Positions 2-22,083 of a stretch of DNA of 22,083 nucleotides are shown in pieces; the first letter of the stretch is position 1; every line of letters begins with the position of its first letter. The notes beneath the pieces are model-generated. The model saw only the letters and a program-made list of their open reading frames with translations, was not told the origin of the DNA and did not search any database. A program made the translations under genes and the position numbers. The DNA is from a virus. Location of the stretch: positions 1 to 22,083 of IMG/VR virus record IMGVR_UViG_3300031673_005126. The stretch is one strand, 5' to 3'.

Positions 2-136
2 ACCACACAAAAATACTGGGAGATAGACGACACCAAGATCGGTTCAGACGCTATGTACAAGCAATATCTATTGATGGACCGAGCGTATGAACAAATCACA
101 GCTTTGATCCTGCGTGACGACGAAAGCGAGGGGTGA
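2..136 (+). CDS. C-terminal end of an unidentified small protein (5' truncated)
   Basis: An open frame runs from the window edge to a TGA at 134-136 and gives the last 44 residues of a gene that begins upstream. The fragment is hydrophilic and probably helical (YKQYLLMDRAYEQITALIL), ending in DDESEG. The stop overlaps the ATG of the next gene as TGATG, so the two are probably translationally coupled. The final codons (GAAAGCGAGGGG) also supply the SD of the next gene. Exactly the same arrangement recurs at the next junction near 325-341, so the shared ESEG ending is better explained by the SD than by protein function. I see no recognisable domain, and the function is unknown. Confidence 0.6.
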   Translation, partial: TTQKYWEIDDTKIGSDAMYKQYLLMDRAYEQITALILRDDESEG

Positions 137-339
137 TGGAAAAACAAGAATGCAATAATTGTTATTACTACCGAGATTCGTTTTGCAAACGCTACCCGCC
201 AACATTTACGAGCGGTGGATATAAACGAATGGATAGCGCAAATCCGAATGAAATAGGCGAGATTACTCTCGTCAGGGAAATAGTTGAAGAGGATGAATGG
301 TGTGGCGAGTACCGCGAAGTAAATGAAAGCGAGGGATGA
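136..339 (+). CDS. Small four-cysteine protein, putative zinc binder
   Basis: A 67-residue protein with CNNCYYYRDSFCKRYPP near the N-terminus and DEWCGEY near the C-terminus. This spacing (CxxC, then C followed by RYPP, then a late WCGEY) is the pattern of a common family of very small phage and bacterial proteins of unknown role. Four cysteines could hold one zinc ion. ATG 136 is chosen because it overlaps the previous stop as TGATG and has GAGG at 128-131; a GTG at 133 would add one residue. The gene ends with the same GAAAGCGAGGG sequence as its upstream neighbour, and its TGA overlaps the ATG of the next gene. The family resemblance is from memory of the motif; the function is unknown. 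Confidence 0.75.
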   Translation: MEKQECNNCYYYRDSFCKRYPPTFTSGGYKRMDSANPNEIGEITLVREIVEEDEWCGEYREVNESEG

Positions 340-674
340 TGTCCAGAATAATGGAGTGGTGCCCGGATTGCGGGATGCCCTACGGTGTCGCGTCTTGCGA
401 TTGCGACGGAACACCCGACGAAATGGTAAATAGAAAACTCCAAGACGAACTCGAAGAGGTCAAGGCCGAGCGGGATACGTTCAAGCAACAGGCCGAAATG
501 TATATGAAGAGTTATCAGGAGATGGCCGATGAGCGTGACAGACTGGTCATTGAGATGACGGCACAGAGCACTGAATTCGCAGAAGCGGCTAATGAAATTT
601 TGCGATTAAAAATAGAACTGGGGGAAGTGGCGGACAATAGGGACGCAACAACGGGGAAGGACACAGTAGTGTGA
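339..674 (+). CDS. Zinc-knuckle plus coiled-coil small protein
   Basis: About 111 residues. The N-terminus reads MEWCPDCGMPYGVASCDCDG, a CxxC...CxC cluster typical of a small zinc ribbon. It is followed by about 65 residues of charged heptad-like sequence (ELEEVKAERDTFKQQAEMY onward) that should form a coiled coil, possibly a dimer. ATG 339 gives the same TGATG overlap and SD spacing as the upstream gene; ATG 336 and ATG 351 are alternatives. The TGA at 672-674 overlaps a GTG for the next gene. The architecture suggests a nucleic-acid or protein adaptor, but nothing in the sequence fixes a role. Confidence 0.75.
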   Translation: MSRIMEWCPDCGMPYGVASCDCDGTPDEMVNRKLQDELEEVKAERDTFKQQAEMYMKSYQEMADERDRLVIEMTAQSTEFAEAANEILRLKIELGEVADNRDATTGKDTVV

Positions 675-952
675 AGGTGCGGAAGAGAATGGGTGATCCG
701 CCTGTACATGGTTTCGTGTGGCTGCCTCCTGTTATAAAGATGGAAGACGTTCCATGCGACCCGGACCCAGGGGACGCAATCTTAGTGCGCAATGTAAACA
801 AGGCGTATGTCTTTGAAGGTCCGCATTGGGTTGAGTTGGATGAGCACTTAGTAGGTCCGTTCTTTATCGATGGGACGGTGGAGATGATGACCACGGAAGA
901 AGCGGAGTTGGTGGGCAGAGTTCAGGAGAAGATGAGGAAGCGTTATGGGTGA
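671..952 (+). CDS. Unknown small protein with the shared C-terminal RVQEKM motif
   Basis: 93 residues from GTG 671 (GTGA overlap with the previous stop) or 87 residues from ATG 689, which has purine-rich sequence just upstream. The body (GDPPVHGFVWLPPVIKMED, then a hydrophobic beta-like stretch ending in FFIDGTVEMM) matches no family I recognise. The C-terminus, EEAELVGRVQEKMRKRYG, carries a motif repeated at the end of the next three genes (ELIxRIQxKL). The last codons (GATGAGGAAGCG) also provide the SD for the following ATG at 945. The shared tail and unrelated body suggest a modular protein, with the tail as a docking or packaging helix; this is inference. Confidence 0.7.
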   Translation: MKVRKRMGDPPVHGFVWLPPVIKMEDVPCDPDPGDAILVRNVNKAYVFEGPHWVELDEHLVGPFFIDGTVEMMTTEEAELVGRVQEKMRKRYG

Positions 953-1136
953 GGGCAGACCAGACTGGGCAGCGAATATGAATATTCCGGACCATCTGTG
1001 GGAAGCGCATTTGAAGGTATCGGATGAGTTGACGCGGGCGTATCGAAAGCCTTCGTGTCGTTGCGTTCTGGTAGTGGCCGATGAAGAGCAAGAACTGATT
1101 TCCAGAATCCAGGAGAAGTTGCATGGCACAGAGTGA
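945..1136 (+). CDS. Unknown 63-residue protein with the shared C-terminal RIQEKL motif
   Basis: 63 residues. It starts at ATG 945, eight bases before the end of the upstream gene, with GAGG seven bases before the start. The body (DWAANMNIPDHLWEAHLKVS then a short RKPSCRCVLVVADEE stretch) is not recognised. The C-terminus, EEQELISRIQEKLHGTE, matches those of the flanking genes. The DNA encoding IQEKL (CCAGGAGAAGTTG) contains AGGAG, seven bases before the ATG of the next gene, so this stretch serves both as protein motif and as ribosome-binding site. Confidence 0.7.
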   Translation: MGEGRPDWAANMNIPDHLWEAHLKVSDELTRAYRKPSCRCVLVVADEEQELISRIQEKLHGTE

Positions 1137-1479
1137 AGATGATTTCTTGAGGCACTTTAACGGTGTCCCGGGGTCGTATGCGCAGGTCGATACGCAGACA
1201 TCGGTTCCGGCGATGACGCAGGAGGGTGCGATGCGGACCAACTGCTTTACGGGGGATACTGAGATTGCGACGAAAAGGGGATTGAAAAAAATACAGGAGG
1301 TGCTTCCGGGAGATATTGAGATGTATAACGCGCTTAGAAAATGCCAGGTACTTACTCACGTGAGGTTGGGGATGTCGATGCCTGCATTTGAGTCCACGGT
1401 GGGTTTGCCCATGCCCACTGAAGAGCAGTTATTGATCCAAAGAATCCAGAAAAAGTTGGAGAAGAGAGATGCAGAATAA
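1123..1479 (+). CDS. Small protein with an orphan intein/Hint N-terminal block and the shared RIQKKL tail
   Basis: 118 residues. Residues 41-64, beginning C41-FTGDTEIATKRGLKKI and ending EVLPGD, match block A of the Hint fold found at the N-terminus of inteins and hedgehog-type domains (C[FL]TGDTxIxTxxGxKxIxEVxxGD). The following residues (to LTHVRLG) may be the next hairpin. No block B with TxxH at the expected distance and no C-terminal HN block are present, so self-splicing is not expected. The protein ends with EEQLLIQRIQKKLEKRDAE, the tail shared with its neighbours. An internal ATG at 1231 lies ten residues before C41 and is preceded by GGAGG with five-base spacing, so a shorter product starting MRTNC is possible. 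Function unknown; either a decayed intein or a reused Hint hairpin. Confidence 0.75.
   Translation: MAQSEDDFLRHFNGVPGSYAQVDTQTSVPAMTQEGAMRTNCFTGDTEIATKRGLKKIQEVLPGDIEMYNALRKCQVLTHVRLGMSMPAFESTVGLPMPTEEQLLIQRIQKKLEKRDAE
1231..1479 (+). other. Possible nested product starting at internal ATG 1231
   Basis: GGAGG (1221-1225) is five bases upstream of an in-frame ATG. The shorter product of about 82 residues would consist of just the Hint-like block and the shared C-terminal tail. It could be the true start of the gene or an additional product. This is inferred only from SD quality and domain position. Confidence 0.35.
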
Positions 1480-1882
1480 ACTCTATTCCAGACTTGGTAC
1501 GTTCAGGATCCCATACAGTGTTTTTGAGAATGAGCGGAGCGTGGATGAGTGGAGTGAGAACGTGGAAGAGATGCAATTGATGATGAGCAGCGTTATTGTT
1601 CTGGACACCCAGCGGGATAATGTGAATCAGTGCGTGTGGTACCTAGCCTTCCATCCCACGTTCAAGTACCAAGATACGGATTATGATATTCAGTCGGGTT
1701 TCCACAACACGTTCTTTCCAGAATACGACGCGATCTTCCGGCGGGACAGTTACACGAATCTGAAGATGTACTGGAAGCCCCGGGATAGCACGTCCACGGG
1801 AGTCCCGGTTGAATTCATGAAGGACGGGGAAGATCCACTGATAGAGCGTGTCCAGAAAAAGGTTGCTGCCCTACGATCCTAA
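1469..1882 (+). CDS. Unknown 137-residue protein with the shared RVQKKV tail
   Basis: 137 residues, overlapping the previous gene by 11 bases, with GGAGAAGAG just upstream of the ATG. The body is rich in aromatic residues and looks like a compact alpha/beta or beta fold (CVWYLAFHPTFKYQD, NLKMYWKPRDS). I recognise no family. The C-terminus, EDPLIERVQKKVAALRS, is the fourth consecutive copy of the tail motif. Because no gene overlaps this end, the motif here cannot be explained by a downstream SD, which supports selection on the protein. This is the last gene before a gap, so the cassette 2-1882 may be one operon. Confidence 0.7.
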   Translation: MQNKLYSRLGTFRIPYSVFENERSVDEWSENVEEMQLMMSSVIVLDTQRDNVNQCVWYLAFHPTFKYQDTDYDIQSGFHNTFFPEYDAIFRRDSYTNLKMYWKPRDSTSTGVPVEFMKDGEDPLIERVQKKVAALRS

Positions 1883-2009: not shown

Positions 2010-3017
2010 ATGCCAGCGAATGTGGTCAAGACAGGGGAGCAGGAAAGGCTCTGGAATAAAGCCAAGGGACTTGCTGAGAAGCAGGGACACGCAAAGGATT
2101 GGCCTTACATTATGGGCATTTTCAAACAAATGGGCGCGATGACTAAATCTCTCCAGGTTCCACCTGCGTTCCGCAATCAGTCCACACCAGGTCAGGTTCC
2201 CAGCAAGGAAAATCTGGAAATCATGAGGATGGCCACCCAGCGTCCGAAGCCATTCAGTGTGGCTCGCCTTTTGGCGAATGATGAGCCCCGTCATACTTTG
2301 GCCAGCGTCATGAAGGGGATGGGTCTATCGTTGGACAAGGTGGGTGAGTGGGTCGATTTTTTGGGTGAGGCTGTCAGGGGTGCGACCAATGAGGTCCAAC
2401 TGAGACAGTCCATCCTGGCTAAATGTCTGGAAGACAATATGGACGGGGCGTTCCGACAGGCGTTGTTACAGCGGAGCCTATCGTATTGGAGGGGTCAGAT
2501 GCAGAAGTCCGAAGTGGAAGTATTTTCGGTTGACGATCTACGCAAGGCGGAGCCCCGGGGCGGGACGTACTACAAACGCACGCCAACCAAGGGCGGCAAG
2601 TACCGTTATTTCTACAACGAAGAAGAGTACGGGAAAGCCAAGGATGCCCATGTGAGCGGCAAGGATGCAGAGTCAGCCCACATATCCGGCAAGGTGCTCA
2701 AGGCGATTGAGAGCGCGGGTGAGGGTGGCTGCGATGTGTCTGCGTTCAAAGACTTGGTGAAGAAGTACGGATCGCAGAAGGTGGCCGGTATTTTGAAGGG
2801 CGGAGCGGGTGGCAAAGCGCAGTTCAAGAAGGGCAAGTTCTACCTGGGTGGGAGCACTCCGGAGAAGGCGGAGAAGAAGCCGAAAGCGATCAAGGATGAG
2901 CCCGCAAAGAAAAATCTGGAAAAGGGTTTCTTCATAATGGTGAAGGGGGAAGACAAGTCAGCCTCCACTGCCATCGGTCGCACTACAAGGCGTCATGGCC
3001 GGAAGGTAAGAAACTGA
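2010..3017 (+). CDS. Modular phage structural or accessory protein, Lys-rich
   Basis: 335 residues from ATG 2010, chosen because GGAG at 1999-2002 is seven bases upstream; a TTG at 1980 would add ten residues but has no SD. The first 45 residues (MPANVVKTGEQERLWNKAK and on to IMGIFKQMG) resemble a short helical domain frequent at the N-termini of phage proteins. A helical middle follows, then a RGGTYYKRTPTKGGKYRY motif (about residues 180-200), a compact domain (about 225-285) that looks winged-helix-like, and a Lys-rich tail. The last 20 or so residues after GEDK (SASTAIGRTTRRHGRKVRN) look like out-of-frame sequence, whereas the -1 frame over the same bases reads like natural protein that continues into the next gene. 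The end may therefore be produced by, or bypassed through, a frameshift. An in-frame ATG at 2499 with GGAGG six bases upstream could start a shorter form. Function unknown. Confidence 0.7.
   Translation: MPANVVKTGEQERLWNKAKGLAEKQGHAKDWPYIMGIFKQMGAMTKSLQVPPAFRNQSTPGQVPSKENLEIMRMATQRPKPFSVARLLANDEPRHTLASVMKGMGLSLDKVGEWVDFLGEAVRGATNEVQLRQSILAKCLEDNMDGAFRQALLQRSLSYWRGQMQKSEVEVFSVDDLRKAEPRGGTYYKRTPTKGGKYRYFYNEEEYGKAKDAHVSGKDAESAHISGKVLKAIESAGEGGCDVSAFKDLVKKYGSQKVAGILKGGAGGKAQFKKGKFYLGGSTPEKAEKKPKAIKDEPAKKNLEKGFFIMVKGEDKSASTAIGRTTRRHGRKVRN
2924..2930 (+). other. Candidate -1 ribosomal frameshift heptamer GGGTTTC
   Basis: In the frame of the upstream gene the bases read aaG GGT TTC, which is the X XXY YYZ pattern of a -1 slippery site. 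A -1 shift here enters a frame that is open from 2900 to 5884 and so would join the 2010 gene to the next gene in one product of roughly 1290 residues. No pseudoknot was verified. A simple indel, or no shift at all, is also possible. Confidence 0.35.
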
Positions 3018-3085
3018 ACAGCCATGAGCGGGAACATAAAGCGTCGGATGAGCGCAGACTGTCTGCGTTGAAAGTGAGAAAATCA

Positions 3086-5884
3086 ATGTCTGGAATAGAC
3101 AAGCTGGGTGAGTTTGCGAAGGCTGAAATCGGCAAGCGTGGCGGGAAGATCATCGGCCACACCTCAGGCGGTAAGCCGGTCTATGAGTCGGCAAGTTCAG
3201 GGGACCACCACAAACACTTGACTGGATCGGAGCACAGGGAGGCGGCCAAAGTTCATCGCACGGCACGCAAGCGCATTTATACCCAGTCTGCGGAGCGCAT
3301 GTCCCGGCGCGGTGATCCGGTTCTTTCCAGAGAAGGTGCGAAGCGTGAAGTGACTGAGGAAGAGAAGAAGAAACTTGCGCACCACAGGGTGCAAGAACAG
3401 ATACACGATGAGGCCGGGAAGTCTTCCATGACTGAGGTGGATGAGGGTGAGGAAAAATTGGCAAAAGATGAAGCGGAAGATGAAGAGCGCAAGGAGATAG
3501 ATGCGCCTCCCAAGGAACTGCCCCTGGGTAAGTCGGGAATCGATGGGTTGGATGACTTCGCAAAGGCCACACCTATCGGGGGCATGACTCCCGGCGGATA
3601 TAAGAAGGTCGCAAAGGATCAATACGTGAAGGTGGGTGCTGCCAAGATGGGGGGCGCGGGTTCGGACAAGCGACATGCGCTGGACGTACAGATCAATAAG
3701 GTGCGCTGGAATGAAGTGATCAAGCAGGTGAAGGCGCAACCCGAAAAGTACAAGGACATGATTCTGGGTGATGCGGTAAATCTGGAAATGCCAAAGATGG
3801 AGAAGGTCCACGGCAAGGGGCTGAAAAACCATCCCAAGGTCAAGGCGATTCAGGATAAGTTGGATACTGCGTGGAAAGAACACGAAGCAGCGAATCCGCC
3901 CGACAAAGAAAAGGCGAAGAAATTTGCAGCGGAGCGTGCGCAGGCTGCGAAGGATCTGCCAAAGGATTACTACACCATGAAAAGTGAGGGAGCAATGTCT
4001 GGAATCGATTCATTGGAAGAGTTTGCGAAGGCGGGGGTAACACCAATTGGCGGAATCACTCCTGGTGGCTACAAACGAATTGGGAAGAAAGAGTATGCGA
4101 AAGTTGGCGCGGAGAAGCCCATGTCCCCATCAATGACAGAGCATATGACGTTGGCTGCCTACATTTCGGATTGGAAGGGGATGGAGGTGAAGCCAACGGG
4201 GAATAAGGGGATCGTGAAGCTCACTGTCTCATCGGATTCAAAGAACGAAAGAGCGTTGAAGTATCTCCAGAAAAATTATGGGTTGCCCGGCAAGATAAGT
4301 CATGATCCGGGGTCGGGCACTATTTCACTTTTGGTGCACCATGAAACCCTAAGCCAGAAGCAGAACATCGGTACGGGTTCGGAGAAATACTACGACAAAA
4401 ACGGTAAGGAGATCACGCGGGAGCAGTCCCTGAAGATTTCTCCGAATCTCCGGTACACGAAGACCGGGGGCAGTGTGCCTTATGCGAAGAAGCCGGATAA
4501 GGATGGGGGGTCGGGGAAAGCGTCGGGGGAGAAGAAATACTACCGGGGGAACAGCGGGGAAGAGATTTCCCGGGAAGAGTCCAAGAAAATGTCACGGCAG
4601 TTTAAGTTCACAAAAGAGGGGAAGAGCGTCCCTTACGAAAAGTCTTTGGAAGGAGATAGGGAAATGTCTGGAATCGATTCATTGGAAGAGTTTGCCAAGG
4701 GCGGTCCGTTTATCGGGCCAAAGGGCGGGAAATACGCGGACGCCGCGCACAAGATTGCCTGGAAAGAGGGCGGGGATAAAACGGGAGGTGGTAAAGTACT
4801 TTCCTATGATCATGCCTTGAGCATGATGAGTACCCAGGTAATCGGGGGATTAAAGGCGGCTGGAATTGATCTCAAGACTGCCAAGATAAAGGATCGGGGA
4901 GGGAATACGGAAATTCTACTCCCGGGTGCGGTGGTCCATCTATCCATAGGGGACAACAAGGGAGGCAAGGATTCGGGTCAAGTCAGAGTTGAGGGTGGTA
5001 AATTCACGGATAAGGTAAAATCAAAAATGTATTCAAGAACGGAAGGGAATATCGGTCAAGCAATCCAGGAAGGGCTTGGCTGGGTAAAGAAATCGTCGGA
5101 AGGAGATAACGAAATGTCTGGAATCGAAGAATTGGGAGAGTTTGGAAACGCATCGGACCCGATGCCCAAAGGCGAACCGACCCTGGGTGGCTCCGGAGCA
5201 GAGCAAGGTGGCAAGCTGGCAGGTGTCGGCAAAACGTCCGGAAGCAACGATTCATCCGCAGGTCCGCCCATCGGTTCTCCCGGTGTCGGCAAGAAGAAGT
5301 TGTCCGAAGATGATGAGGATGATGAGAAGCAGATGAAGCCCCACAAGAAGCCCATCGAAAAGACACTCCGCAAGGGCATGGATAACGGATCCATCCCGCA
5401 GGGACAGCGGGATATGGTCGCACATGAAAACGCAGTAGCTGTCTCCCGGCTCCGCAAGGGCGAAGAGACCCAGGAGTATGGGGTTGGCGTAAAGCCCCCT
5501 GCGGCGGCTCCGGAGCCCATCCAGAAAAGCGGTGGGTGGCAGTCCAGTCCCGATGGGGTCATTGGCTATTCGCACGATGCGGATCTTGCCTGTGAGAAGA
5601 TCCTGACATCGGATGCGTTCTATCCCATGGGGGCTCCCACGCTCACCAAATCATCGGTGCTGATCAACACGATGGTGAATTGCCCGGCGTGCGATTCGGT
5701 GATGTCCAAGTCGCTGGCTGTCTGCCCGGAGTGCGGCAATGGAGCGGTCCATCCCCGGGTAATGCCCGGTATTGAGTTGTCCGGCGGTGATGGGAAAAAT
5801 CTGGAAAAATCACTTCCGCCTGTTCTCTCCCCGGCACACCAGGAGATGCTGGTACTGCCCAATGGTGTAGAAGACACAGAGTAA
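3086..5884 (+). CDS. Modular virion-type protein with five MSGIDxLxEFAKA modules and a C-terminal zinc ribbon
   Basis: 932 residues from ATG 3086; the frame is open upstream to 2900, and a TTG at 3068 is an alternative start. Five sections each begin with [MK]SGI[DE]xLxEF (3086, 3530, 3995, 4664, 5114). Section 1 has GGKIIGHTSGGKPVY and a His-rich DHHKHLTGSEHREAAKVH stretch. Sections 2 and 3 have TPIGGxTPGGYK linkers. Section 3 ends with a 36-residue tandem duplication. Section 4 has FIGPKGGKYADAAH followed by a small alpha/beta domain. Section 5 is low-complexity, with a C-terminal double CPxC knuckle (C866, C869, C880, C883). The section borders at 3995, 4664 and 5114 carry SD-like sequence before the ATG, as if separate genes had fused. 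It lies directly upstream of the portal, suggesting a virion or head-assembly role. The product is unidentified. Confidence 0.75.
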   Translation: MSGIDKLGEFAKAEIGKRGGKIIGHTSGGKPVYESASSGDHHKHLTGSEHREAAKVHRTARKRIYTQSAERMSRRGDPVLSREGAKREVTEEEKKKLAHHRVQEQIHDEAGKSSMTEVDEGEEKLAKDEAEDEERKEIDAPPKELPLGKSGIDGLDDFAKATPIGGMTPGGYKKVAKDQYVKVGAAKMGGAGSDKRHALDVQINKVRWNEVIKQVKAQPEKYKDMILGDAVNLEMPKMEKVHGKGLKNHPKVKAIQDKLDTAWKEHEAANPPDKEKAKKFAAERAQAAKDLPKDYYTMKSEGAMSGIDSLEEFAKAGVTPIGGITPGGYKRIGKKEYAKVGAEKPMSPSMTEHMTLAAYISDWKGMEVKPTGNKGIVKLTVSSDSKNERALKYLQKNYGLPGKISHDPGSGTISLLVHHETLSQKQNIGTGSEKYYDKNGKEITREQSLKISPNLRYTKTGGSVPYAKKPDKDGGSGKASGEKKYYRGNSGEEISREESKKMSRQFKFTKEGKSVPYEKSLEGDREMSGIDSLEEFAKGGPFIGPKGGKYADAAHKIAWKEGGDKTGGGKVLSYDHALSMMSTQVIGGLKAAGIDLKTAKIKDRGGNTEILLPGAVVHLSIGDNKGGKDSGQVRVEGGKFTDKVKSKMYSRTEGNIGQAIQEGLGWVKKSSEGDNEMSGIEELGEFGNASDPMPKGEPTLGGSGAEQGGKLAGVGKTSGSNDSSAGPPIGSPGVGKKKLSEDDEDDEKQMKPHKKPIEKTLRKGMDNGSIPQGQRDMVAHENAVAVSRLRKGEETQEYGVGVKPPAAAPEPIQKSGGWQSSPDGVIGYSHDADLACEKILTSDAFYPMGAPTLTKSSVLINTMVNCPACDSVMSKSLAVCPECGNGAVHPRVMPGIELSGGDGKNLEKSLPPVLSPAHQEMLVLPNGVEDTE
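3986..3997 (+). promoter_or_regulatory. Internal SD plus ATG at the third MSGID module
   Basis: GAGG at 3986-3989 with five-base spacing to the in-frame ATG 3995. It would start a nested product of about 629 residues. Confidence 0.4.
4385..4642 (+). repeat. Tandem 36-residue duplication within the modular protein
   Basis: Copy one (4385-4492) and copy two (4535-4642) are offset by 150 bases. Both follow KYY...G.EI.RE.S.K.S..[FL][RK][FY]TK.G.SVPY.K. The copies have diverged, so the duplication is not recent. The pattern suggests a small beta-helix-beta unit. Confidence 0.8.
4651..4666 (+). promoter_or_regulatory. Internal SD plus ATG at the fourth MSGID module
   Basis: AGGAG at 4651-4655 with eight-base spacing to the in-frame ATG 4664, a near-ideal ribosome-binding site inside a long frame. 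It would start a product of about 406 residues. The encoded residues (LEGDRE) have no obvious role in the protein. Confidence 0.5.
5101..5116 (+). promoter_or_regulatory. Internal SD plus ATG at the fifth MSGI module
   Basis: AGGAG at 5101-5105 with eight-base spacing to the in-frame ATG 5114. GGAAGGAGATA and GAAATGTCTGGAATCGA are the same as in the site at 4651. It would start a product of about 256 residues that contains the zinc ribbon. Confidence 0.5.
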
Positions 5885-10087: not shown

Positions 10088-11881
10088 ATGCTGTTAAGCC
10101 CAGAGCAACTTCAGGAGATCAGGCAGATCATTGAAGATCACCATGATGCGTTTATTGTGAATGCGTTGGGTGAAGAAGGTGTGAGCAAAGAAGTGCTCCA
10201 GCACCTCAAAGACAAGGGCTTGGTCGATGTGTCTGTGGAGTCCATCCAGGATGCCTATTTGTACGGGCAGTTGGTGGGGCAGTTGCAGAGCCTACAGGTC
10301 TCCAATATGTCTTACGATCAGTTCCGGAGCCATATCGCAAAGAACCCGGTTCCGTTGTCGGACAACGAAAAGCACGCGGTCCAGATGGCCATTTTTAATG
10401 CGGGTCAGTACTGCCAAGGATTGGGCAATACGGTATCGCTTGATACCGGTGCAATCATCATTGAGGGTGATGCTAAACTGCGGGCAGAGCTGGAGTCTGA
10501 GATTCGTACCACCACGGCAGAGAACATTGCCCGCAGGGAGACGGTGAAGCAACTAAAGACCGATTTGGGCTGGGCATCCAAGGACTGGGAGCGGGACTGG
10601 GACCGTATCGCACGCACAGAGAAGCAGACAGCCATGCAGACCGGCGTGGCGGACAGTTACCGTAAAGAGTACGGGTCCGGGGTGAGGGTCGCTAAAATCC
10701 CAATGCCGGACGCCTGCCCGCATTGCAATCGATTGCACATCGGTCCAGACGGGCAACCCAGAATCTTCACTTTGTCCACGCTGGAGAACAACGGGACCAA
10801 TGTGGGGCGCAAAGCGGCGGATTGGCGGGCTGTGATCGGCACGGTCCATCCGAACTGCCAGTGCCAGATGATTCGCGTTCCAGAAGGCTGGGGATTCAGC
10901 GAAGAAGGGGAGGTGGTCCCCGGCGGTGAGTTCGGTGAAGTCTACGCGGATGAAGAAGAGCTGGAACTGGCGATGCTGGCTGAAGATGATCTACAGAAGG
11001 CGTTCAAGTTGCAGGGGCATCTCAAGTTCCAGGGGCTCCCGATAGCGATTGAGAATCGGAAGGGCACGAAGCGGACGTGGAAGGATGCGGACGGCAACAC
11101 AGGGATCACGCAGATGTATGTGGCTTATGGCTACATCGAAGGCACGCAGGGTGCGGACCAGGATGAGATCGATGTGTTCATTGGCCCGGATCCCAATGCC
11201 AGCAATGCTTTCGTGGTCCACCAGGGAGATCCCGGCACAGGTCGGTACGATGAAGACAAGTGCATGCTGGGCTTCCCGAATGAGAAGGAGGCAGTTGCCT
11301 GCTACCGGACGCACTACGATCTCCCGGACCAATACTTCCTTACGGTCTCTCCGATGCCAATGGATCAGTTCAAACGCTGGATCAGCAACACGGGGCCAAA
11401 GAAGGGGGAGATGGGAAAGTCTGGAATCCTCTACGTCATTCCGATGGATGAGCCCGCTGCCAAGTCGTTGTCCCAGCTTGAGGGGGCGGGTCAGAGTCCG
11501 GCGGGCAACCGTGGTCCCGGTCCCGGGCTGGGGATCAATCATGTGATCATGATTCCAGAAAAGCCACGGCAGAAAGCCAAGACCGACAATGCCCCAGGTG
11601 TGGATGACTACATAGAGAGCAATCCGTTCGGGATTGATGACGCGCTGCATGTGGACCGGGAGGTCTACGATTTCATGGAGCGGTATTCGTTGGTGCATCC
11701 GATAGTTACTCCAGAGCAGTTCAAGGAGTTCGGTGAGTTGGCGCGGGAGGATGCGGATCGGTTCATGGCATATTTGAAGCAGTACAATATTCGGAATTCT
11801 GGCCTGCCTGCCAATTCGGTTGAGGTTGGCGATAGGAAGAAACCGAAAAGAACCCCAGTGAAAAGGGAAGAAGATGCGTAA
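10088..11881 (+). CDS. MuF-like minor head protein fused to an inorganic-pyrophosphatase-like domain
   Basis: 597 residues. Helical N-terminus (1-170). Residues 172-260 are the Mu gpF-like minor head domain: RIARTEKQ...G...Y, C210-PHC213, and VH254-PNC257-QC259, the usual zinc ligands. Residues about 312-435 (FQGLPIAIENRKG, GYIEGTQGADQDEIDVFIG, YDEDKCMLGFPNEKEA) match the inorganic-pyrophosphatase-like domain known from phage polyvalent proteins. The C-terminus is helical. MuF proteins sit near the portal, and attached domains may enter the cell with DNA. The acidic DxDxxDVF residues are retained, so activity is possible but unproven. The gene overlaps the zeta gene by eight bases. Confidence 0.88.
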   Translation: MLLSPEQLQEIRQIIEDHHDAFIVNALGEEGVSKEVLQHLKDKGLVDVSVESIQDAYLYGQLVGQLQSLQVSNMSYDQFRSHIAKNPVPLSDNEKHAVQMAIFNAGQYCQGLGNTVSLDTGAIIIEGDAKLRAELESEIRTTTAENIARRETVKQLKTDLGWASKDWERDWDRIARTEKQTAMQTGVADSYRKEYGSGVRVAKIPMPDACPHCNRLHIGPDGQPRIFTLSTLENNGTNVGRKAADWRAVIGTVHPNCQCQMIRVPEGWGFSEEGEVVPGGEFGEVYADEEELELAMLAEDDLQKAFKLQGHLKFQGLPIAIENRKGTKRTWKDADGNTGITQMYVAYGYIEGTQGADQDEIDVFIGPDPNASNAFVVHQGDPGTGRYDEDKCMLGFPNEKEAVACYRTHYDLPDQYFLTVSPMPMDQFKRWISNTGPKKGEMGKSGILYVIPMDEPAAKSLSQLEGAGQSPAGNRGPGPGLGINHVIMIPEKPRQKAKTDNAPGVDDYIESNPFGIDDALHVDREVYDFMERYSLVHPIVTPEQFKEFGELAREDADRFMAYLKQYNIRNSGLPANSVEVGDRKKPKRTPVKREEDA

Positions 11882-13314: not shown

Positions 13315-16300
13315 ATGGCATTACTGATCAAAGCATTCTTGGATTGCCCGGACGATCTGTTTAAGGCGATTCTGGGTAAATGGAAGGGCATCCCGATCAT
13401 TGCTATCGGACCCAAGGGCGGTCAGATCATTGGGTACGGCAGCAATGGGAAACCGATCTACGCGGGGTCGAAGAAAGCGGAATCGCTGGCAGCGACCAAA
13501 GACCACTTCAAAGGCAAGTCGAAATCGGACATGGGTTCGGGTGAGCTGGTATCGATTGTGGCGTGGTTGCAGAGCCTGGGTATCCCCGGCAAAGCGACCA
13601 CGAACTATGTGCGGGTCAATCCAGAAGCCGCAGAGATGATGTCTGAGGCGTTCGGAGTTGAGGGCAAGCCATCCATAGGGAATACCGTTATCATCCTCAT
13701 GGAACAGCTTTTACCTTACGTTGGCGAGCCTTTGAAGCCTCCCAAGGGGCAGAAAGCGGCGTGGGCCGCTCACATTGCGTCCGGTCAGCACGAAAATAGC
13801 GTGTTCCCGGATGATTTGAGCACCCTGAAGCATGTGGATACCGTGGGCAGCCACGGTGTGTGGCACATGAAGGACAAGAACGGGAAATCCTTCTTCTTCA
13901 AAAAGGGAAGCCAGGTTATTGCCAGAGCAGAAGAAGCGGCGTTGCGCCTGGGCCGATTGGTGCTGGGTGACAGGATTGCTGAAGGCCAGATGGTGGAGAT
14001 CGATGGGAAGAAGGGTGTGCTTCTCTCCGGTCTGGATGGTGAGGTATTCAACCAGAGTTCGCACAGTGATCCACCTTCCAAGTATCTGAAGAAATACCGG
14101 CTCCAGGTCATAGAGCACGAAATTCTGGATTGGTTCATTTCCAACCACGATCCGCACGCGGGGAATTTCCTTGCGGACGGTGAGAAGATGAACGGGATTG
14201 ATAAGGGACAGGCGTGGAAGTGGATAGGCAAGGACAAGTTGGATCCAGCCTACAAAGGCACGGGCTCACAGAATCCCAGCAATGCCATCTATTACAAGTT
14301 CTGGAATGAGGTGAAGGCCGGGAACATCTCCACGGATGGGTTCGTGGATGCGGCGGCAAAGGTGATTGGTGAGATTGAAAAGATCTCCGATGTCCAGTTC
14401 ACTGAGATCCTGCGTCCGTATCTCACAGAAGCGAAGAAGGAGCACGGCAAGGATCCGAAGAAGTTACTCCAGAAGATGCTGGACCGGAAGAATAGCATGC
14501 GGAGTGATTTTGAGACGTTCTTTTCAGAGCAGTTCGATGTTCAGGTGGTCATTCCGAAAGTGGGCGTGGGTGAAGACAATTTCGAGACCATGCCAGAAGC
14601 GAAAGAGAAGACCACGGTGAAGGTGGAGTCTGCGGTCAAGAAGATCGAAGGCGGGGCCACCAAGCCGGTACCCGATGAGGCGCAGCCAGAGCCCACTGGG
14701 TGGCCGATAACCAAGGGGAAGGGCAAGGGGACCGCTACGGTCCACAACCCCGGTGAGCCACCTCCTGCGGGCGGGGAATGGCCAAAGGGCATCCCTGGTC
14801 CGGGTTGCTTCATGTCCGTGAAGTACAAAGGGCAGGTTTACCAGGTCTACGTGGGTGAATCGATGATTCAGCCGGGGAAGCCCACGTTCACGATTACCTA
14901 CCCGGACGGGGAGCAGTCCAAGTTCAAGTCTGCGAATGCTGCCGGGGACAGCCTGTATCTGTTTCACAACAAACTTCCAATCCTCATGTCGGGAACAGAT
15001 AAGAAGGAAAAGGGCATTACGCTGGGTTCCTACGGGCTCAAGTTCAAGTTGTTTGAGAAGGAGTTTGCGAGCGCGTACAGCGGCGGTGAGATCAGTCCCA
15101 ACCAGATGGATCCGAAAAGTCTGGAAAAAGAAGGGTTGGTGGAGCCGGATCAGGATGAAGTTTCGATTGTCCAGTTACTTGAAAATGAGCCCGATGGGAT
15201 CATCTCTGATCCTGGGATGCTGCCCACTGAGGTTCAGGATTTCATGAAGGCGCACGGGGAAACAGTTGGGGAGAATTGGCCCGCAGCTATTATACCAGGC
15301 ACAGCAATGAAGTTGACTTCCCAGGCTACGGGGGCAGTCATCATTGTGACTGCTTTTGTGAAGGCGAACGGTGATCCGGGGTATCGGCTCTGGCAGAAGT
15401 ATAAAAATAATGATGAGGATGTGACGTTTAAGGACATGGGTGTGCTTACCCCCAGTATAATTGACGATGCGTATGATCTGGGAGCGGATACTGGTCTGAA
15501 GTTTGTCAAGAAGGAGACAGCCAGCGCAGCCAATTGGGAGTCCATGCCCAAAGATGAGAGTGCCATTAAAGAGATGTTGGGGAATCATCCCACAGGCACT
15601 TTGTATCAGTTGAAGGATCCTAATCTGGAAGCACCCCTGCATACATTCAAAAAAGTTGTGACCAGTGATGGTGAGCAGTTCCAGGTGGTGTTTGATATAT
15701 GGAATGTTGACGATCCCACGGTGGCTCATTCTGTTTCGGGTTTGGCCGATTTTGGGTCCATGGAGATTTTTGATCTTAAATATAAATTACCAGACTTCAT
15801 GGAGGACTTTGCCAAGGTTCCTAGTGCGGATTCGGAACCTGTAGAACCCAAGACAAAGCCCCTGGTCGGTTCTGCTCCGGAAGCGGAGCTACCCAAGGAT
15901 GCGGTAATTCCAGAAAGTGCGCCAAAGCACTACAAAGGTCCGATGCCTCCAGGTGCAAAGGTCACAGTTAAAAAGAAGTTTGAGATAGGTACTGCAACGG
16001 AAAAATTAGACGTGGAATTACTGGCAAAGGAAGATGGCCAGTTTGAAATTTATATTCCGCATTTCGGCACTTTGAAGACTTTTAAATCCTTGAGCGCAGC
16101 CAGCGATTACGTGTGGGTGAAGCAGAAGGGCTACGTGGACGCGGATGATTACAAAGCCAAGAACAATACCAACAAAATTCCTAGTGGTGGTGGTTGGAAG
16201 TTTTTTGGGATCAACCCGAAGAAGGTGGTTGAGATTGAGGCGGAACCAGCGGTTAGCATTCCAGACTTAGAGACTTTGCAGAATGATCCAAACTCAACAT

Positions 16301-19300
16301 CCTATGTTGTGGCATTGCCCGGGGTGAATAGCCCGATTACGTGGATCAAAGCCAATAATAATCTCTGGAAAAGGATGGGACCGAAAATCTTTGGGGCTCC
16401 CGATACGCTGTCGGACGCGGGGTTAGATAAGTGGTTCTTGGACCAGTCTGGTTCGCTGACCAATGCAGATCAGGTCAAAAAGACAGAAGTTCTCCAGTCA
16501 TGGCAGAATCATTTCCCGACCTTAGCTGAAATAAAGTCGGACGTGATTGGCACCGAGTATTTCTTCCCGGCGGATGGTTTCAATATCCAATGGATTAAGG
16601 TTGCCGACAGCGGACCCTATACGTGGAAGCGTTATGAGAACGGGGAGTACGACGACTGGGTAGATCTCTCCGATGAGGGATTCAACGACTACATCCTGGG
16701 CATTATGAATGATGAGGTCTACGTTGCCCCAACGAAGTCCACGGGGAAGACACCCCCGGACGCAGAAGATGATTCACCCAGTGGGGGCTGGGAAAAGGTT
16801 GTGCCTGAGGTGGGCGTTTCGGACATCGATGGGTGGCCGGAAGGCACCCAGGTGAAGCTGGGTGATTGGATTGCCACCAAGAAGCCCGATGGGAAGTGGT
16901 CGTACATTATGGAGGGGGAGCCCGAAGTTACTGCTCCCTCCAGCACACTCCTGAACGATATGCAGGCGACTGAGGATGCGGAGTATGTGAAGTTCCCTGA
17001 ACTGGAAGGCGGCTGGGAAGAATTACTCCAGCCCGGGTTCAGTGATTTCAAAAACTATCCGTTAGGCACACAGCTGAAGGGCGTTGGTGCGGGAAAGGCG
17101 GATAAGAAATTTGGCAAGGATGACATCATCTGGACAAAGGTAGCTCCGAAAATCTGGAAAAACGATTACATGCCGGAACAGAACGTGGATTACACGGAAC
17201 TGCCCAATATCTGGAATCTCTCCAAAGAAGTTCATATTAAGAAGCCTGAAGGCGGTGAGTCTGAAGACAATTGGGATTCGATGCCCAAGGTTCCTAATTT
17301 GCAAACAGTGATGTTGTGGCCGGTGGGGACCGAACTGAAGGGCGTGGCTGAAGATTTTACTACGCACACCTATACGAAAATAGATGGGAAGAATTGGAAG
17401 CATACTGCGCCAACGGATGCGGGAGAGCTGTCCCCCAATGAGAGTATGCTTGTCGCTTGGGAGGTATTGAACAATGTCAAGGTAAAGCAGGCACCAAACT
17501 GGGGGTGGGACGCTGTTCCCCAGCCTAATGTGAGCGACGTTCAGGGTTTGCCTGTGGGTACGCAGATCAAGACCGCCTATTCGGATGGGATCCATTTCTG
17601 GAAAAAAATCAGTGAGAACAACTGGGAGCACATAAAGGCAGGGGAGGATCCGACTGGAGCAATGGAGGATTCGGTTATTACTGATATTTGGACATTGGTG
17701 GGTGATGACGTTCCTGTGATGGTGAAGATGCCCGAATCGGGGGAACCGGATACAGTGGCAGCAAAGCCATCCGCCGGGAACGAAATCTTTACTGGTGGCC
17801 CGCCCACAGAAGACGTGTTAGCGGCGATGCCTGCGGGGACAGTGCTCACCCAGGTTTTTGATAAGACTAAGGGCACGTCTGCCGATGCCTTTGAGTTGGG
17901 TGATGTCTACACGTACACAAAAACTATCCATGATGCGGACGCAGACAATGACTATTGGGAAGTCAGCAAGGACGGTAAGACGTGGGATGTGGCTAAGGAT
18001 GGTGCGACCAATAAGAAAGTTTCTGGGTATTTGGAGTCGGATTACGCAGCACAGGAGCAGAACACTTTTTATTTTAAGATCTATTCGGGCGATGCGCCTG
18101 GGAAGAAAGAGAATAAGTTCCTGAAGGTGCCGGGCATTCCTTCTATTGAAGTGCTGAAGGGCATGAAAACGGGGATGCAGTTTGTTGTGGTCTACGATGA
18201 TGGGCAGAGTTCTGTTTTTACGAAAGCGGGGCCGAATGCCTGGGAGGTTTCCAGTTCGCTTTCGGGTGAAGTAGTAACGCTCAGTTCAGCCATCGCCAAA
18301 GACGATCTGCAAACTGCATTCCACCAAGGTGCCGATGTCACGGTGAGTGAAGAGCCGGTTGAATGGGGTGTTCCAGAAGATAAGGATCCTGTGTTGTCCC
18401 ATCCGGTGAAGGGGGAGGAAACTTATTTCCACAACGTGAGCACGGTACCTTCCGTTCAGAGTCTGATTGATGCTCCTTCCGGCACGGTTTACATGGCCAA
18501 ATTTGAGGGGGCTGATTGGTACTATACAAAACAGGATGCAGGGGGATTAGGAGCCCATTCTACTTGGAAAGTAGAAAAAGTGCCACCACAGGGGGATGAT
18601 GGTCCGCAGGTATATGGTTCCGTCCCGATGCACAATGAGTTGGTTGATATTTTCACGGATGGGACGCCTATCTTCGTGAGCGCAGCGAAGCAACCAGAAG
18701 AAGAGAAGCCAAAGAAGAAGCAGAAGCCCAACAAAAAGAAGATTCCGGAAAACGCGCATTTCGATACCGCCAATTTGCCTGCGGGGACTACGACAATCCA
18801 GAAGTCTAAACTTATGGGTGGCTTCGATGTAATGGCAGAACAGAAGTGGTTGGAAGTTAAAGAAGGAGGTCATTCCCTTGCGGAGAAAAACCCTGGGTGG
18901 ACTGCGTGGGCTCCACCTCCCGGCGTTTTCTTTTCAGGCGTAGCAGACGGGAAGCTGTTCTATTTCGTGACAGCCAACCCAGGTTGGAAGATTGATGGTT
19001 CGAGCGAACCTGCCGATAAGTACAGTTGCGCGATTATCGATGATAAAGGGGATGTTCATCCGGGCCATGTTTTCGGCAAAAATATGTCGGCTGCCAAAGC
19101 GATAAAAGAAGCTGCAACCGTCATTCCAGAATTAGCGGGGATGAATGCCAACCAGTTGAAGAAGGTTTTTGGGCTGGGCAAAAAGTATGCGGCCACAGAA
19201 ACCTTTGAGTCTCTGAAGGAAGGTTTGGGTGTCTCCAGTCTGCCTACTGTTGATGAGGTAATCGATGGCCCGGTGGAGACTGCATCGGACGCGGCAAAAG

Positions 19301-22083
19301 CAACCCCGGTTCAGGTTACGATGCCACTTCAGAAGGCACTGGAAGAGCATGCGGTTGCGAAGAAGTATGGGGACCAGTTCAAAATCAAGCCTGCTAAGAA
19401 GCCGGGCCATTCGATAATCGCTATCAACAGTAAGGCGGAAGAGGCAGCATCGGATTTCGGTCAGATCCTTTTGGACTACGGGTTGGCCCATTACATGCCT
19501 AAGAAAAACCAGTGGGGTGTATTTCTGACTTTGCCAACTCATGTGTTGCAAGCTGACACGGTGGTTGAGATGCCAGCGGTGGAGGCCAGTGAAGTTCCGG
19601 CAACCCCATCGGATGACAACTGGGAAACGATGCCCGACAGTATCCCGAAAAGTTTGAACATGGATACTTACCCGTACTTTACCCTGAAAGAGAATTTCAA
19701 CCAGATGCCAGCGGGTTCCATAATCCTGAATCCAAACAATTTAAAAATGGTGGAGAAGAAGGTATCCGGTCAATTCTTTTTATCGGATGGAGCAACCGAG
19801 ACCAGCACACTTCAGCATTCGGTTGTTTTGGATTTTATGTCTGGTGGGGTAGGAAAGAACTGGGTTTTTCATCCGCCTGGTTGGACAGCACAAGGACATG
19901 CGGGCCAGCCCCTGGGTGATGATATTCCAGCTACGTTCGACATGAGCCAATACGGATATAGCAAGATGAAAAATCACATCTTGCCGATGATGCCTATTGG
20001 CGCATCTTTCTGGAATGAGGAAGACCAGGTTCAAGTTAAAAAAATGTCGCAGCATACCTGGGTTGTTGTCGAAGGCGATAATAAACTTGGCAAGTGGAAA
20101 AATATCGAAGACCCGGTTGAAGTCACCGATGAATTGGAGGGTACATCCAGTAAAGTCTGGACAGCTCATCCGAACGGGTGGGAGCCCCCAACGAAGAAAG
20201 TCAAAACGGCCAAGCTCAAGAAGCCCGCAAAGAAAGTTTTCAAAACGTATAAGAGCCAGAAGCCGTCGATTCAGGTGCTGAGTGATGCGCCAAAGGGTTC
20301 GGTGGTTGTTGAGTCCGGGCAGTATTGGAAGTACACCAAGATGGCCGATGGCCCGCAGGGAGTCTGGAAAGCGCAGAACGGTGTTGAGAAGGGATCCGGT
20401 GAGCTACAGGAGTATCTGGATTCTCCCAATTCGAGTAAGCCCACGACACTGACCATGCCCGCGCCAAAGCCGTTAACGGCTGCGCAGAAAGAGAAGCTGG
20501 CTGAAGAGGAAGCTGCGAAGAAGAAAAAGCTGGAAGAGCTGAAGGTGAAGCTGGCGAAGCAGAAGGCGGAGCAGGAGGTACTGATAGCCAAGGCGAAGGA
20601 AGTTGCTGCGTGGGCAAAGGACTACCCGACCATTACTGCGAAGCAGCAACTCCTTGGTTTGGCTCATCTCCAGGCGAAGCTGGGGAAAGAGTGGGAAGGC
20701 AAGATTTGGGCGCGGCAAGATGGCAAGGGCAATGTGCTCCTGGGTTCGGAAGAGCCTGGGTTGGATACCAAGTTGAAGGAGGTATTCGGCAAGATCACTT
20801 CAGTCGATTCTCCCCTGGGTTCTTTCTGGAAAATCAGCAATGACAAATTGAAGAAGGCGTTCCCGGGCTCCACAACCACGAAGGGTCCGGACGGGAAGAT
20901 GTACCCGGTTGGGACTGCGTTCGACACAAAGACAGTCACAGAACCAAAGAGCAAGAAGATTGAGAGTGAGCCTGGGTTTGTGAAGTTCAAGGATCACAAA
21001 AGCGATGACACCCTGTCGGCTCTGAAGGTTGCGCCTGCGGATGAGAACGGGGTCGGGTACCTCAAAGGCATCGTGGACAAGTATGAACTGACTCCGACTG
21101 GGGATCCGCTTACCGGCAATTCCTACGTGATGCAGTTCTTTAAGAAAACGGATCTGGCCGGGGACGTGTCTGAGGTTGTCCCGGACTACAAGATACCAGA
21201 GCAACCCAAGTCATTCATGGGCAAGGGGCTGCCCACATACGATCCATCGATGGATGGGGAGATTGCCCCAAACAATCGCACAGATGTTGCGATGTTGGAC
21301 GGGATGAAGCTGGGTTCATACGGGATGGGCATCCGGTTCGGGAAAGCTGGGGTGCTCAATGATTATCAGTTGGGCGTGCGCAAGGTAAAGGATCACACCG
21401 GGAAGGTGTTCTACGAATTCACGGGCAACCTGGCTGACCGCAATCCAACGGGTAAGCAGTTAAAGTCTGGATCTATGTCTTTCTACTCCACGGAAGTTCC
21501 GGATTCGCACACGTCGTACTCTAAACCAAATTACGACAAGGAAACGGGAATAGTCACAGAAAGCTCTAAGGTTATGGAGGTGGATGGTGCGCACAAGACC
21601 TATAGTGCGTGGGTTGGTACGACTGAGGCGGGAACCAACATTGAGCTTGCGAAGTCCAATGCCTCCACTTTCCTCCAGGGTCGATTCCGCATCCGTATTC
21701 CAGAAGGTGCGGATCGGGAGACAGAACTGGCAGAAGCCTTCACGCGCATGGGCGTGGATGCGGCGAAGGCGATGGGCATACCCGATGAAGATGATGAGCG
21801 CATTTTCATAAAGAGTCAGATCGTGCGCATGGGGCTGGGTCCGGGTGCGCGTAACTACGGCAATCAGGATCAGACGAAATTGCATGATGAGGCGTGGCTG
21901 GATTCGCAGTTGGAATCTTTAGGGCTTACTAAGTACGTGGAAACTGCGACCATTCGCAAGTCATTCCAGGGCAAGCATTCGGTGTACGTAGAAGACCAGG
22001 ATGTGGCGAAGAAGAAGGGGGCTCTGTTCGCTTACCAGGGGGTATCTCAGCACATGGCCCTTATGCAACTTCTCTACGGCTGG
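13315..22083 (+). CDS. Giant multidomain protein with an N-terminal kinase-like domain (3' end outside the window)
   Basis: I read this frame to the window end without a stop: at least 2923 residues. An in-frame TAA sits just before ATG 13315, so no earlier start exists; the SD is weak, suggesting coupling to the gene upstream. Residues 32-52 hold a GPKGGQIIGYGSNGKPIY linker. Residues about 145-375 have protein/PI-kinase-like features: GSHGVWHMKDKNG loop, FFFKK (K196/K197), E206/E207, and D279-PHAGN284 with D296 (GIDKG), as in HipA/PI3K-like kinases. The rest has about eleven xPxG[TS] modules, four [DA]N[WF][ED][ST]MP borders, Lys-rich spacers, a coiled coil (about 2387-2425) and an alpha/beta C-terminal part starting at LGSYGMGIRFG (about 2666). 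Probably a virion or injected effector; function unknown. Confidence 0.8.
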   Translation, partial: MALLIKAFLDCPDDLFKAILGKWKGIPIIAIGPKGGQIIGYGSNGKPIYAGSKKAESLAATKDHFKGKSKSDMGSGELVSIVAWLQSLGIPGKATTNYVRVNPEAAEMMSEAFGVEGKPSIGNTVIILMEQLLPYVGEPLKPPKGQKAAWAAHIASGQHENSVFPDDLSTLKHVDTVGSHGVWHMKDKNGKSFFFKKGSQVIARAEEAALRLGRLVLGDRIAEGQMVEIDGKKGVLLSGLDGEVFNQSSHSDPPSKYLKKYRLQVIEHEILDWFISNHDPHAGNFLADGEKMNGIDKGQAWKWIGKDKLDPAYKGTGSQNPSNAIYYKFWNEVKAGNISTDGFVDAAAKVIGEIEKISDVQFTEILRPYLTEAKKEHGKDPKKLLQKMLDRKNSMRSDFETFFSEQFDVQVVIPKVGVGEDNFETMPEAKEKTTVKVESAVKKIEGGATKPVPDEAQPEPTGWPITKGKGKGTATVHNPGEPPPAGGEWPKGIPGPGCFMSVKYKGQVYQVYVGESMIQPGKPTFTITYPDGEQSKFKSANAAGDSLYLFHNKLPILMSGTDKKEKGITLGSYGLKFKLFEKEFASAYSGGEISPNQMDPKSLEKEGLVEPDQDEVSIVQLLENEPDGIISDPGMLPTEVQDFMKAHGETVGENWPAAIIPGTAMKLTSQATGAVIIVTAFVKANGDPGYRLWQKYKNNDEDVTFKDMGVLTPSIIDDAYDLGADTGLKFVKKETASAANWESMPKDESAIKEMLGNHPTGTLYQLKDPNLEAPLHTFKKVVTSDGEQFQVVFDIWNVDDPTVAHSVSGLADFGSMEIFDLKYKLPDFMEDFAKVPSADSEPVEPKTKPLVGSAPEAELPKDAVIPESAPKHYKGPMPPGAKVTVKKKFEIGTATEKLDVELLAKEDGQFEIYIPHFGTLKTFKSLSAASDYVWVKQKGYVDADDYKAKNNTNKIPSGGGWKFFGINPKKVVEIEAEPAVSIPDLETLQNDPNSTSYVVALPGVNSPITWIKANNNLWKRMGPKIFGAPDTLSDAGLDKWFLDQSGSLTNADQVKKTEVLQSWQNHFPTLAEIKSDVIGTEYFFPADGFNIQWIKVADSGPYTWKRYENGEYDDWVDLSDEGFNDYILGIMNDEVYVAPTKSTGKTPPDAEDDSPSGGWEKVVPEVGVSDIDGWPEGTQVKLGDWIATKKPDGKWSYIMEGEPEVTAPSSTLLNDMQATEDAEYVKFPELEGGWEELLQPGFSDFKNYPLGTQLKGVGAGKADKKFGKDDIIWTKVAPKIWKNDYMPEQNVDYTELPNIWNLSKEVHIKKPEGGESEDNWDSMPKVPNLQTVMLWPVGTELKGVAEDFTTHTYTKIDGKNWKHTAPTDAGELSPNESMLVAWEVLNNVKVKQAPNWGWDAVPQPNVSDVQGLPVGTQIKTAYSDGIHFWKKISENNWEHIKAGEDPTGAMEDSVITDIWTLVGDDVPVMVKMPESGEPDTVAAKPSAGNEIFTGGPPTEDVLAAMPAGTVLTQVFDKTKGTSADAFELGDVYTYTKTIHDADADNDYWEVSKDGKTWDVAKDGATNKKVSGYLESDYAAQEQNTFYFKIYSGDAPGKKENKFLKVPGIPSIEVLKGMKTGMQFVVVYDDGQSSVFTKAGPNAWEVSSSLSGEVVTLSSAIAKDDLQTAFHQGADVTVSEEPVEWGVPEDKDPVLSHPVKGEETYFHNVSTVPSVQSLIDAPSGTVYMAKFEGADWYYTKQDAGGLGAHSTWKVEKVPPQGDDGPQVYGSVPMHNELVDIFTDGTPIFVSAAKQPEEEKPKKKQKPNKKKIPENAHFDTANLPAGTTTIQKSKLMGGFDVMAEQKWLEVKEGGHSLAEKNPGWTAWAPPPGVFFSGVADGKLFYFVTANPGWKIDGSSEPADKYSCAIIDDKGDVHPGHVFGKNMSAAKAIKEAATVIPELAGMNANQLKKVFGLGKKYAATETFESLKEGLGVSSLPTVDEVIDGPVETASDAAKATPVQVTMPLQKALEEHAVAKKYGDQFKIKPAKKPGHSIIAINSKAEEAASDFGQILLDYGLAHYMPKKNQWGVFLTLPTHVLQADTVVEMPAVEASEVPATPSDDNWETMPDSIPKSLNMDTYPYFTLKENFNQMPAGSIILNPNNLKMVEKKVSGQFFLSDGATETSTLQHSVVLDFMSGGVGKNWVFHPPGWTAQGHAGQPLGDDIPATFDMSQYGYSKMKNHILPMMPIGASFWNEEDQVQVKKMSQHTWVVVEGDNKLGKWKNIEDPVEVTDELEGTSSKVWTAHPNGWEPPTKKVKTAKLKKPAKKVFKTYKSQKPSIQVLSDAPKGSVVVESGQYWKYTKMADGPQGVWKAQNGVEKGSGELQEYLDSPNSSKPTTLTMPAPKPLTAAQKEKLAEEEAAKKKKLEELKVKLAKQKAEQEVLIAKAKEVAAWAKDYPTITAKQQLLGLAHLQAKLGKEWEGKIWARQDGKGNVLLGSEEPGLDTKLKEVFGKITSVDSPLGSFWKISNDKLKKAFPGSTTTKGPDGKMYPVGTAFDTKTVTEPKSKKIESEPGFVKFKDHKSDDTLSALKVAPADENGVGYLKGIVDKYELTPTGDPLTGNSYVMQFFKKTDLAGDVSEVVPDYKIPEQPKSFMGKGLPTYDPSMDGEIAPNNRTDVAMLDGMKLGSYGMGIRFGKAGVLNDYQLGVRKVKDHTGKVFYEFTGNLADRNPTGKQLKSGSMSFYSTEVPDSHTSYSKPNYDKETGIVTESSKVMEVDGAHKTYSAWVGTTEAGTNIELAKSNASTFLQGRFRIRIPEGADRETELAEAFTRMGVDAAKAMGIPDEDDERIFIKSQIVRMGLGPGARNYGNQDQTKLHDEAWLDSQLESLGLTKYVETATIRKSFQGKHSVYVEDQDVAKKKGALFAYQGVSQHMALMQLLYGW
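13855..14300 (+). other. Kinase-like core within the giant protein
   Basis: Glycine-containing loop GSHG, then a Lys pair in FFFKKG, then the helix AEEAALRLGRL, a hinge-like IDGKKGVLLSGL, the catalytic loop NHDPHAGNFL and the metal-binding GIDKGQAW, in the order expected for the kinase fold. The DxHxxN spacing is closer to HipA and PI3/4-kinase-like families than to eukaryotic-type HRDxxxxN. The substrate is not predictable. Confidence 0.65.
14572..19635 (+). repeat. Four [DA]N[WF][ED][ST]MP module borders in the giant protein
   Basis: EDNFETMPEA at 14572, AANWESMPKD at about 15529, EDNWDSMPKV at 17263 and DDNWETMPDS at 19612. The similarity is at protein level, and codons differ (for example AATTGG against AACTGG), which argues for old duplications kept by selection rather than recent copying. 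Confidence 0.75.
15586..20310 (+). repeat. Array of degenerate xPxG[TS] beta modules in the giant protein
   Basis: Cores are at 15586 (HPTGTLYQ), 15943 (MPPGAKVT), 16834 (WPEGTQVK), 17056 (YPLGTQLK), 17317 (WPVGTELK), 17548 (LPVGTQIK), 17827 (MPAGTVLT), 18472 (APSGTVYM), 18775 (LPAGTTTI), 19705 (MPAGSIIL) and 20287 (APKGSVVV). Each is preceded by a V/I-containing strand and usually followed by an aromatic-Lys and a Trp 15-40 residues later. Spacing in the middle of the array is 74-93 residues. Confidence 0.7.

Follow-up and report, generated by a model that had tools for sequence, protein, structure and literature searches.

Four consecutive small genes of an uncultured tailed phage encode unrelated proteins that share one C-terminal tail

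Shared terminal targeting tags are already known as a kind. The cargo-loading peptides of encapsulins are found at the C-terminus of unrelated cargo proteins, and the tails described here are likewise C-terminal on unrelated proteins. The encapsulin peptides are extended rather than helical and bind a shell with the HK97 fold. In phage T4, the capsid targeting sequence (CTS) is common to the internal proteins IPI, IPII and IPIII and to Alt, whose mature parts are divergent. It is regarded as a means by which phages take up various cargo proteins, and foreign cargo can be brought into the head by it (PMC9026906). This CTS is located at the N-terminus, as a propeptide of 10-19 residues that the prohead protease gp21 removes (PMC9026906). 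The encapsulation peptides of bacterial microcompartments (BMCs) are amphipathic helices of 15-20 residues at either terminus of cargo enzymes that are unrelated to each other. They are joined to these enzymes by a flexible linker and directed to the BMC shell (PMC11157265).

The tail that we describe has been seen in one contig only. This contig, called the window below, is the whole stretch of DNA that was analysed, and it is a linear virus record of 22,083 bases (IMGVR_UViG_3300031673_005126). It is probably a fragment of a virus genome, and its source is an uncultured tailed phage whose portal is SPO1-like. The portal protein is identified with confidence (Pfam PF04860, 3.9e-27; PHROG portal, 2.8e-53), and its best named matches belong to SPO1-like phages, at about 40% identity. 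Portal searches yielded 30 related contigs, the nearer of which are 57-68% identical in the portal. Several of them share a gene order that consists of a large terminase-like gene (a label taken from position and ORF appearance, not from a family search), then either no small genes or a set that varies, a gene whose product starts MPANVV (window 2010-3017), a long modular protein and the portal. The four tagged genes sit in the variable small-gene stretch of this layout. Elsewhere in the window, a single ORF (10088-11881) encodes both a region with a weak likeness to Mu F (E 0.14) and a domain of the inorganic-pyrophosphatase type (PF18823, 1.2e-40). Another ORF (13315-22083), coding for 2,923 aa or more, runs past the contig end and has no NCBIfam match.

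Like the T4 CTS, the tail is a terminal peptide common to phage proteins with different bodies. Unlike the CTS, it is C-terminal in all four proteins, in a comparison made on the described features of the two. The best reading of this comparison is that the tail may work like the CTS yet is not a member of the CTS family, which is defined by a cleaved N-terminal propeptide. The BMC encapsulation peptides offer a similar likeness, namely a terminal peptide on unrelated proteins, and in the tail a putative terminal helix is placed by low-confidence models. They differ in that the cargo would be four small phage proteins, and there is no match to a BMC shell protein among the subset of ORFs scanned from this 22-kb fragment. 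When a profile of the tail was searched against PDB, the best matches were ECF sigma factors at a non-significant E-value of 0.48. The first helix of region 2 in E. coli SigE (VLVERVQK) contains LVERVQK, which resembles LIERVQK of gene 1469, but the sigma factor helix is N-terminal. The likeness is probably a chance match between helices.

There are exactly four occurrences of a 12-residue motif, ExxL[IV]xR[IV]Q[EK]K[LMV], in the six-frame translation of the window, and all four are located at the C-termini of consecutive forward-strand genes starting at 671, 945, 1123 and 1469. The copies span nucleotides 899-934 (EAELVGRVQEKM), 1086-1121 (EQELISRIQEKL), 1423-1458 (EQLLIQRIQKKL) and 1829-1864 (EDPLIERVQKKV), also on the forward strand. 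Each is followed by 4-6 variable residues before the stop, and this distance is similar in all four genes, gene 1469 included. The sequence-only reading had claimed that these four genes end in one motif, and all four copies are where it placed them. However, its 12-residue core is only part of the conserved unit. The alignment indicates a somewhat longer unit of about 17-20 residues, in which the helix comes after a hydrophobic segment and a T/D cap.

The resemblance among the tails exceeds that in shuffles and in tails of related phages. The back-translated motif gives four matches in the window and none in 100 dinucleotide shuffles. The best 12-column block of the four tails scores 203, compared with a maximum of 100 when four real tails of related phages were drawn 3,000 times and a maximum of 104 in 3,000 shuffles. 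When a profile was made from three tails and used to search 9,334 ORFs for the held-out fourth, the held-out tail was the best new match each time, with E-values of 3.5e-6 (gene 671), 1.8e-6 (gene 945), 7.2e-6 (gene 1123) and 0.0055 (gene 1469), and the next best ORF had an E-value above 5. Among 2,251 same-strand gene pairs from the window and the fetched related loci, the five best C-terminal pairs all fall within the four genes. A chance resemblance of four helical tails would appeal to the shortness of the motif and to the helical ends of many small phage proteins, but it is barely conceivable given this block score and these leave-one-out E-values.

The proteins that carry the tail are otherwise unalike. 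Coding scores are positive in all four gene frames, and each of these frames beats the other five. The first gene (671..952) has two candidate starts, GTG at 671 and ATG at 689, which give products of 93 and 87 aa, respectively, with the tail TEEAELVGRVQEKMRKRYG, and its coding score is positive in its own frame only. Its body contains a hairpin, GD..YVF.G..WVEL, that weakly resembles fibre-type phage proteins, with matches to a PDB chain (E 0.33), a collagen-like phage protein (0.02) and a tail fibre (0.5). This hairpin is a weak hint that at least one of the bodies may be virion-related. The second gene (945..1136; 63 aa; tail DEEQELISRIQEKLHGTE) and the fourth (1469..1882; 137 aa; tail DGEDPLIERVQKKVAALRS) encode orphan proteins.

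The third gene (1123..1479; 118 aa; tail TEEQLLIQRIQKKLEKRDAE) carries a truncated intein/Hint N-terminal block (NCFTGDTEIATKRGLKKIQEVLPGDIEMYN). This block resembles the intein N-terminal splicing model TIGR01445 at a score below the curated cut-off (E=0.007; 17.3 bits, with a cut-off of 24.5) and also Hint_2 (E=0.025), and the match spans only about 28 residues. A complete intein/Hint domain with a C-terminal block was considered and rejected, as the match is this short and the C-terminus is taken up by the shared tail. The block is too short for splicing. An internal ATG at 1231 (ORF 1231-1479) is preceded by a strong Shine-Dalgarno (SD) sequence, AGGAGG, with a 5-nt spacer, and is located just ahead of the intein-like Cys block (MRTNCFTGDTEI). 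A shorter product of this gene from ATG 1231 is possible.

With the tail removed, the similarity between bodies is no higher than that of shuffled sequences in all six pairwise comparisons. A paralogous gene family is therefore rejected, and the check for full-length homology bears out the proposal that the bodies are unalike.

Successive genes of the set overlap by 8, 14 and 11 nt, and each of the first three tail regions contains an SD sequence for the next gene, always with a 7-nt spacer. These forward-strand sites are GAGG at 934-937 for gene 945, AGGAG at 1111-1115 for gene 1123, and GGAG at 1458-1461 for gene 1469. The first begins at the last base of motif copy 1 and the third at the last base of motif copy 3, and gene 945 is the only one with the SD within the motif. 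Counted from the first base of the codon for R in R[IV]Q, the SD offsets are +17, +7 and +17 nt in genes 671, 945 and 1123. The earlier observation that the first three tails hold the SD of the next gene is thus correct as to presence, but the offsets differ and the site is inside the motif in one gene only. Two further observations made with it hold as they were given: the conserved L[IV]xR[IV] part is outside the SD at these offsets, and no downstream gene overlaps the fourth. Gene 1469 retains the motif in a tail that has no SD of a following gene.

Because the SD registers differ and the fourth gene has no SD, translation signals do not explain the motif. A by-product of SD and overlap constraints on the DNA would account for the SD found in three of four tails, and look-alike protein ends elsewhere in the operon seem to have been made in this manner. 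Specifically, the first two ORFs of the window (53-339) end in DDESEG and VNESEG, and closely spaced or overlapping starts come next; this likeness is probably explained by an SD-plus-ATGA overlap constraint. For the four tails, such an origin is highly improbable, since in addition to the varying offsets and the SD-free fourth gene, the codons vary synonymously. Chance and translation constraints are effectively excluded as sources of the motif.

Constraint on the protein is evident from the codons. L, R, Q and K are invariant across the four tails, and the I/V positions are encoded by ATT, ATC, ATA, GTG, GTT and GTC and the invariant R by AGA and CGT. Pooled over 13 core codons, pN is 0.30 and pS is 0.80, a contrast that is partly expected because the motif was picked for protein similarity. 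The eight codons from -12 to -5 give a pN of 0.69 and a pS of 0.68, as for unrelated sequence. Since the L/R/Q/K and I/V pattern is kept while codons vary synonymously, with a pS of 0.80, the constraint on the tail acts on the protein. This agrees with the sequence-only reading, in which a C-terminal motif on unrelated proteins acts at the protein level and is neither an SD by-product nor a result of full-length paralogy.

The tails also retain traces of copying. Synonymous sites are saturated, which shows that the tails are either old copies or independent ones. A diverged direct repeat of 47 nt is present in the first three tails, with three forward-strand copies, wherein those at 888-934 and 1412-1458 are 64% and 72% identical, respectively, to the reference copy at 1075-1121. 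For the first three genes, nucleotide identity over codons -4 to 12 exceeds the prediction from codon choice (P 0.0095). With the fourth gene included, the excess is not significant (P=0.16). As judged from these nucleotide comparisons, an old copied cassette is a reasonably supported source of the tails in the first three genes and a probable one in the fourth. The four tails are related to each other, lie at the very C-terminal end and are under constraint at the protein level, and this conservation is known from four copies in one 22-kb contig.

One rival explanation is that the tails are relics of copying with no shared role at present, in which a 3'-end cassette comprising the tail and the ribosome-binding region was duplicated as the operon gained new small genes, and the tails have yet to decay. 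The three-copy direct repeat, the excess nucleotide identity of the first three genes (P 0.01) and the proximity of each of these three copies to the SD of the following gene are as expected for such relics. However, the amino acid pattern has been kept despite saturated synonymous sites, when a neutral relic of that age should no longer show the motif, and the fourth gene retains the motif with no overlapping downstream gene. We consider this explanation rather unlikely. Also unlikely is an arrangement in which the tails bind one another, such that all four proteins would belong to a single complex, held together by a bundle of their C-terminal helices, and the gene overlaps would secure stoichiometry. 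The same helix in each of four consecutive overlapping genes (8, 14 and 11 nt), and the coiled-coil-like spacing of 3-4 between hydrophobic positions 5, 8 and 12, would fit a bundle, but the helix comprises only some one and a half heptads, and invariant R, Q and K are atypical for a plain bundle.

The evidence for the helix itself bears on another possibility, membrane targeting by an amphipathic C-terminal helix like those of MinD and FtsA. In single-sequence AlphaFold models made for two of the proteins, the motif is a terminal helix, with mean pLDDT values of 41 and 49; over the tails pLDDT is about 40-52, and the models are too poor for a fold search. The Eisenberg moment of the tails is modest (0.38-0.50) and not significant relative to shuffles, and their net charge is -1 to +2. 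Thus, of the proposed amphipathic helix, the terminal helix appears in low-confidence models, but the hydrophobic moment is not above that of shuffles. The hydrophobic stripe and the basic residues of the putative C-terminal helix are in favour of membrane targeting. Nevertheless, the low, non-significant moment, the net charge, the invariant polar residues and the absence of an aromatic membrane face make this function very improbable. Because R, Q and K are polar and invariant, specific recognition is favoured over generic amphipathicity.

Our preferred interpretation is that the tail serves as a C-terminal docking tag for one common partner, a proposal that, on the pattern of conserved residues, we regard as evenly balanced between right and wrong. 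The sequence feature itself is real and well supported, and it is the role of the tail that we infer. Docking, packaging and localisation, suggested in the sequence-only reading by analogy with cargo-loading peptides, are putative roles. Perhaps copying spread the tail among the genes of unrelated small accessory proteins, and the invariant L, R, Q and K, together with the I/V positions, might make up a helix by which each of the four docks on the same partner. This partner might be a host protein or a component of the virion or of a scaffold. The tail would then have been retained because shared docking brings accessory proteins that are produced together to the same place. A more specific and more tentative proposal is that the tail represents an undescribed, transferable C-terminal tag of tailed phages, wherein a helix cassette of about 20 residues, copied onto unrelated small proteins, would take them to one partner and possibly into the virion.

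A docking tag would not be the only shared short helix in this lineage. The large protein encoded upstream of the portal (window 3068-5884) repeats a helix, KS[ML]xGIDxLxE[YF][AL]xK[AG], before different modules that begin IGPKGGK, TPIGGITPGGYK and YARRWRGANGKW, and this arrangement is also present in five related loci. At two other loci, modules with a helix of this type start separate genes. The helix could be a protease site or a binding helix. Its repetition before unrelated modules means that shared short helices have precedent in the same lineage. As a separate observation, the MPANVV protein and the portal, which are unrelated, both have ends resembling KS-x(2-4)-[FW]-[IV] in three related loci, such as KSMRGQFIIRR and KSMRKWVVKL in one of them. 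This is possibly another shared C-terminal motif of the lineage.

Relatives of the phage carry different small genes at the position of the four tagged genes, and these genes do not have the motif. None of the four tagged genes was found in a relative. The best score among ORF ends in related loci is 24, compared with 39-45 for the four tails. The motif pattern is absent from 27 related records, and a profile of the tail found nothing beyond the four at E-values up to 10 in 16 related records. Three of the four proteins were not found in the 27 related records, in searches run with no positive control. Peptide-pattern scans of a viral contig collection revealed no relatives of the four proteins other than general Hint matches for gene 1123. 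A tblastn search of the proteins against 50,697 phage records gave weak partial matches only, and the consensus tail as a tblastn query of phage records gave no match. Two motif scans of 2.9 million viral contigs returned 11 loci, none of which is a tandem set of tagged C-termini; these scans had differing codon restrictions and, with some codons fixed, covered only part of the possible encodings, and the collection scans may omit records that are very close to the window.

A motif scan of a genome contig collection returned 87 loci, among which the only recurrent C-terminal case is one Halomonas protein family. Its members end in DPELMQRVQEKV-[EQ]S, which fits the pattern of the four phage proteins' tails, and occur as a single gene at each of five loci. 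With one gene per locus, the likeness is taken as a coincidence. Searching the literature for C-terminal motifs shared among small phage proteins yielded nothing relevant.

If the docking-tag interpretation is true, the tail would provide a handle on the roles of anonymous orphan phage proteins, four of which would be placed together. A shared terminus on unrelated bodies would also become a searchable signature for sets of phage proteins involved in cargo delivery or host takeover. Moreover, the tail would be a C-terminal counterpart to the capsid targeting sequence of T4.
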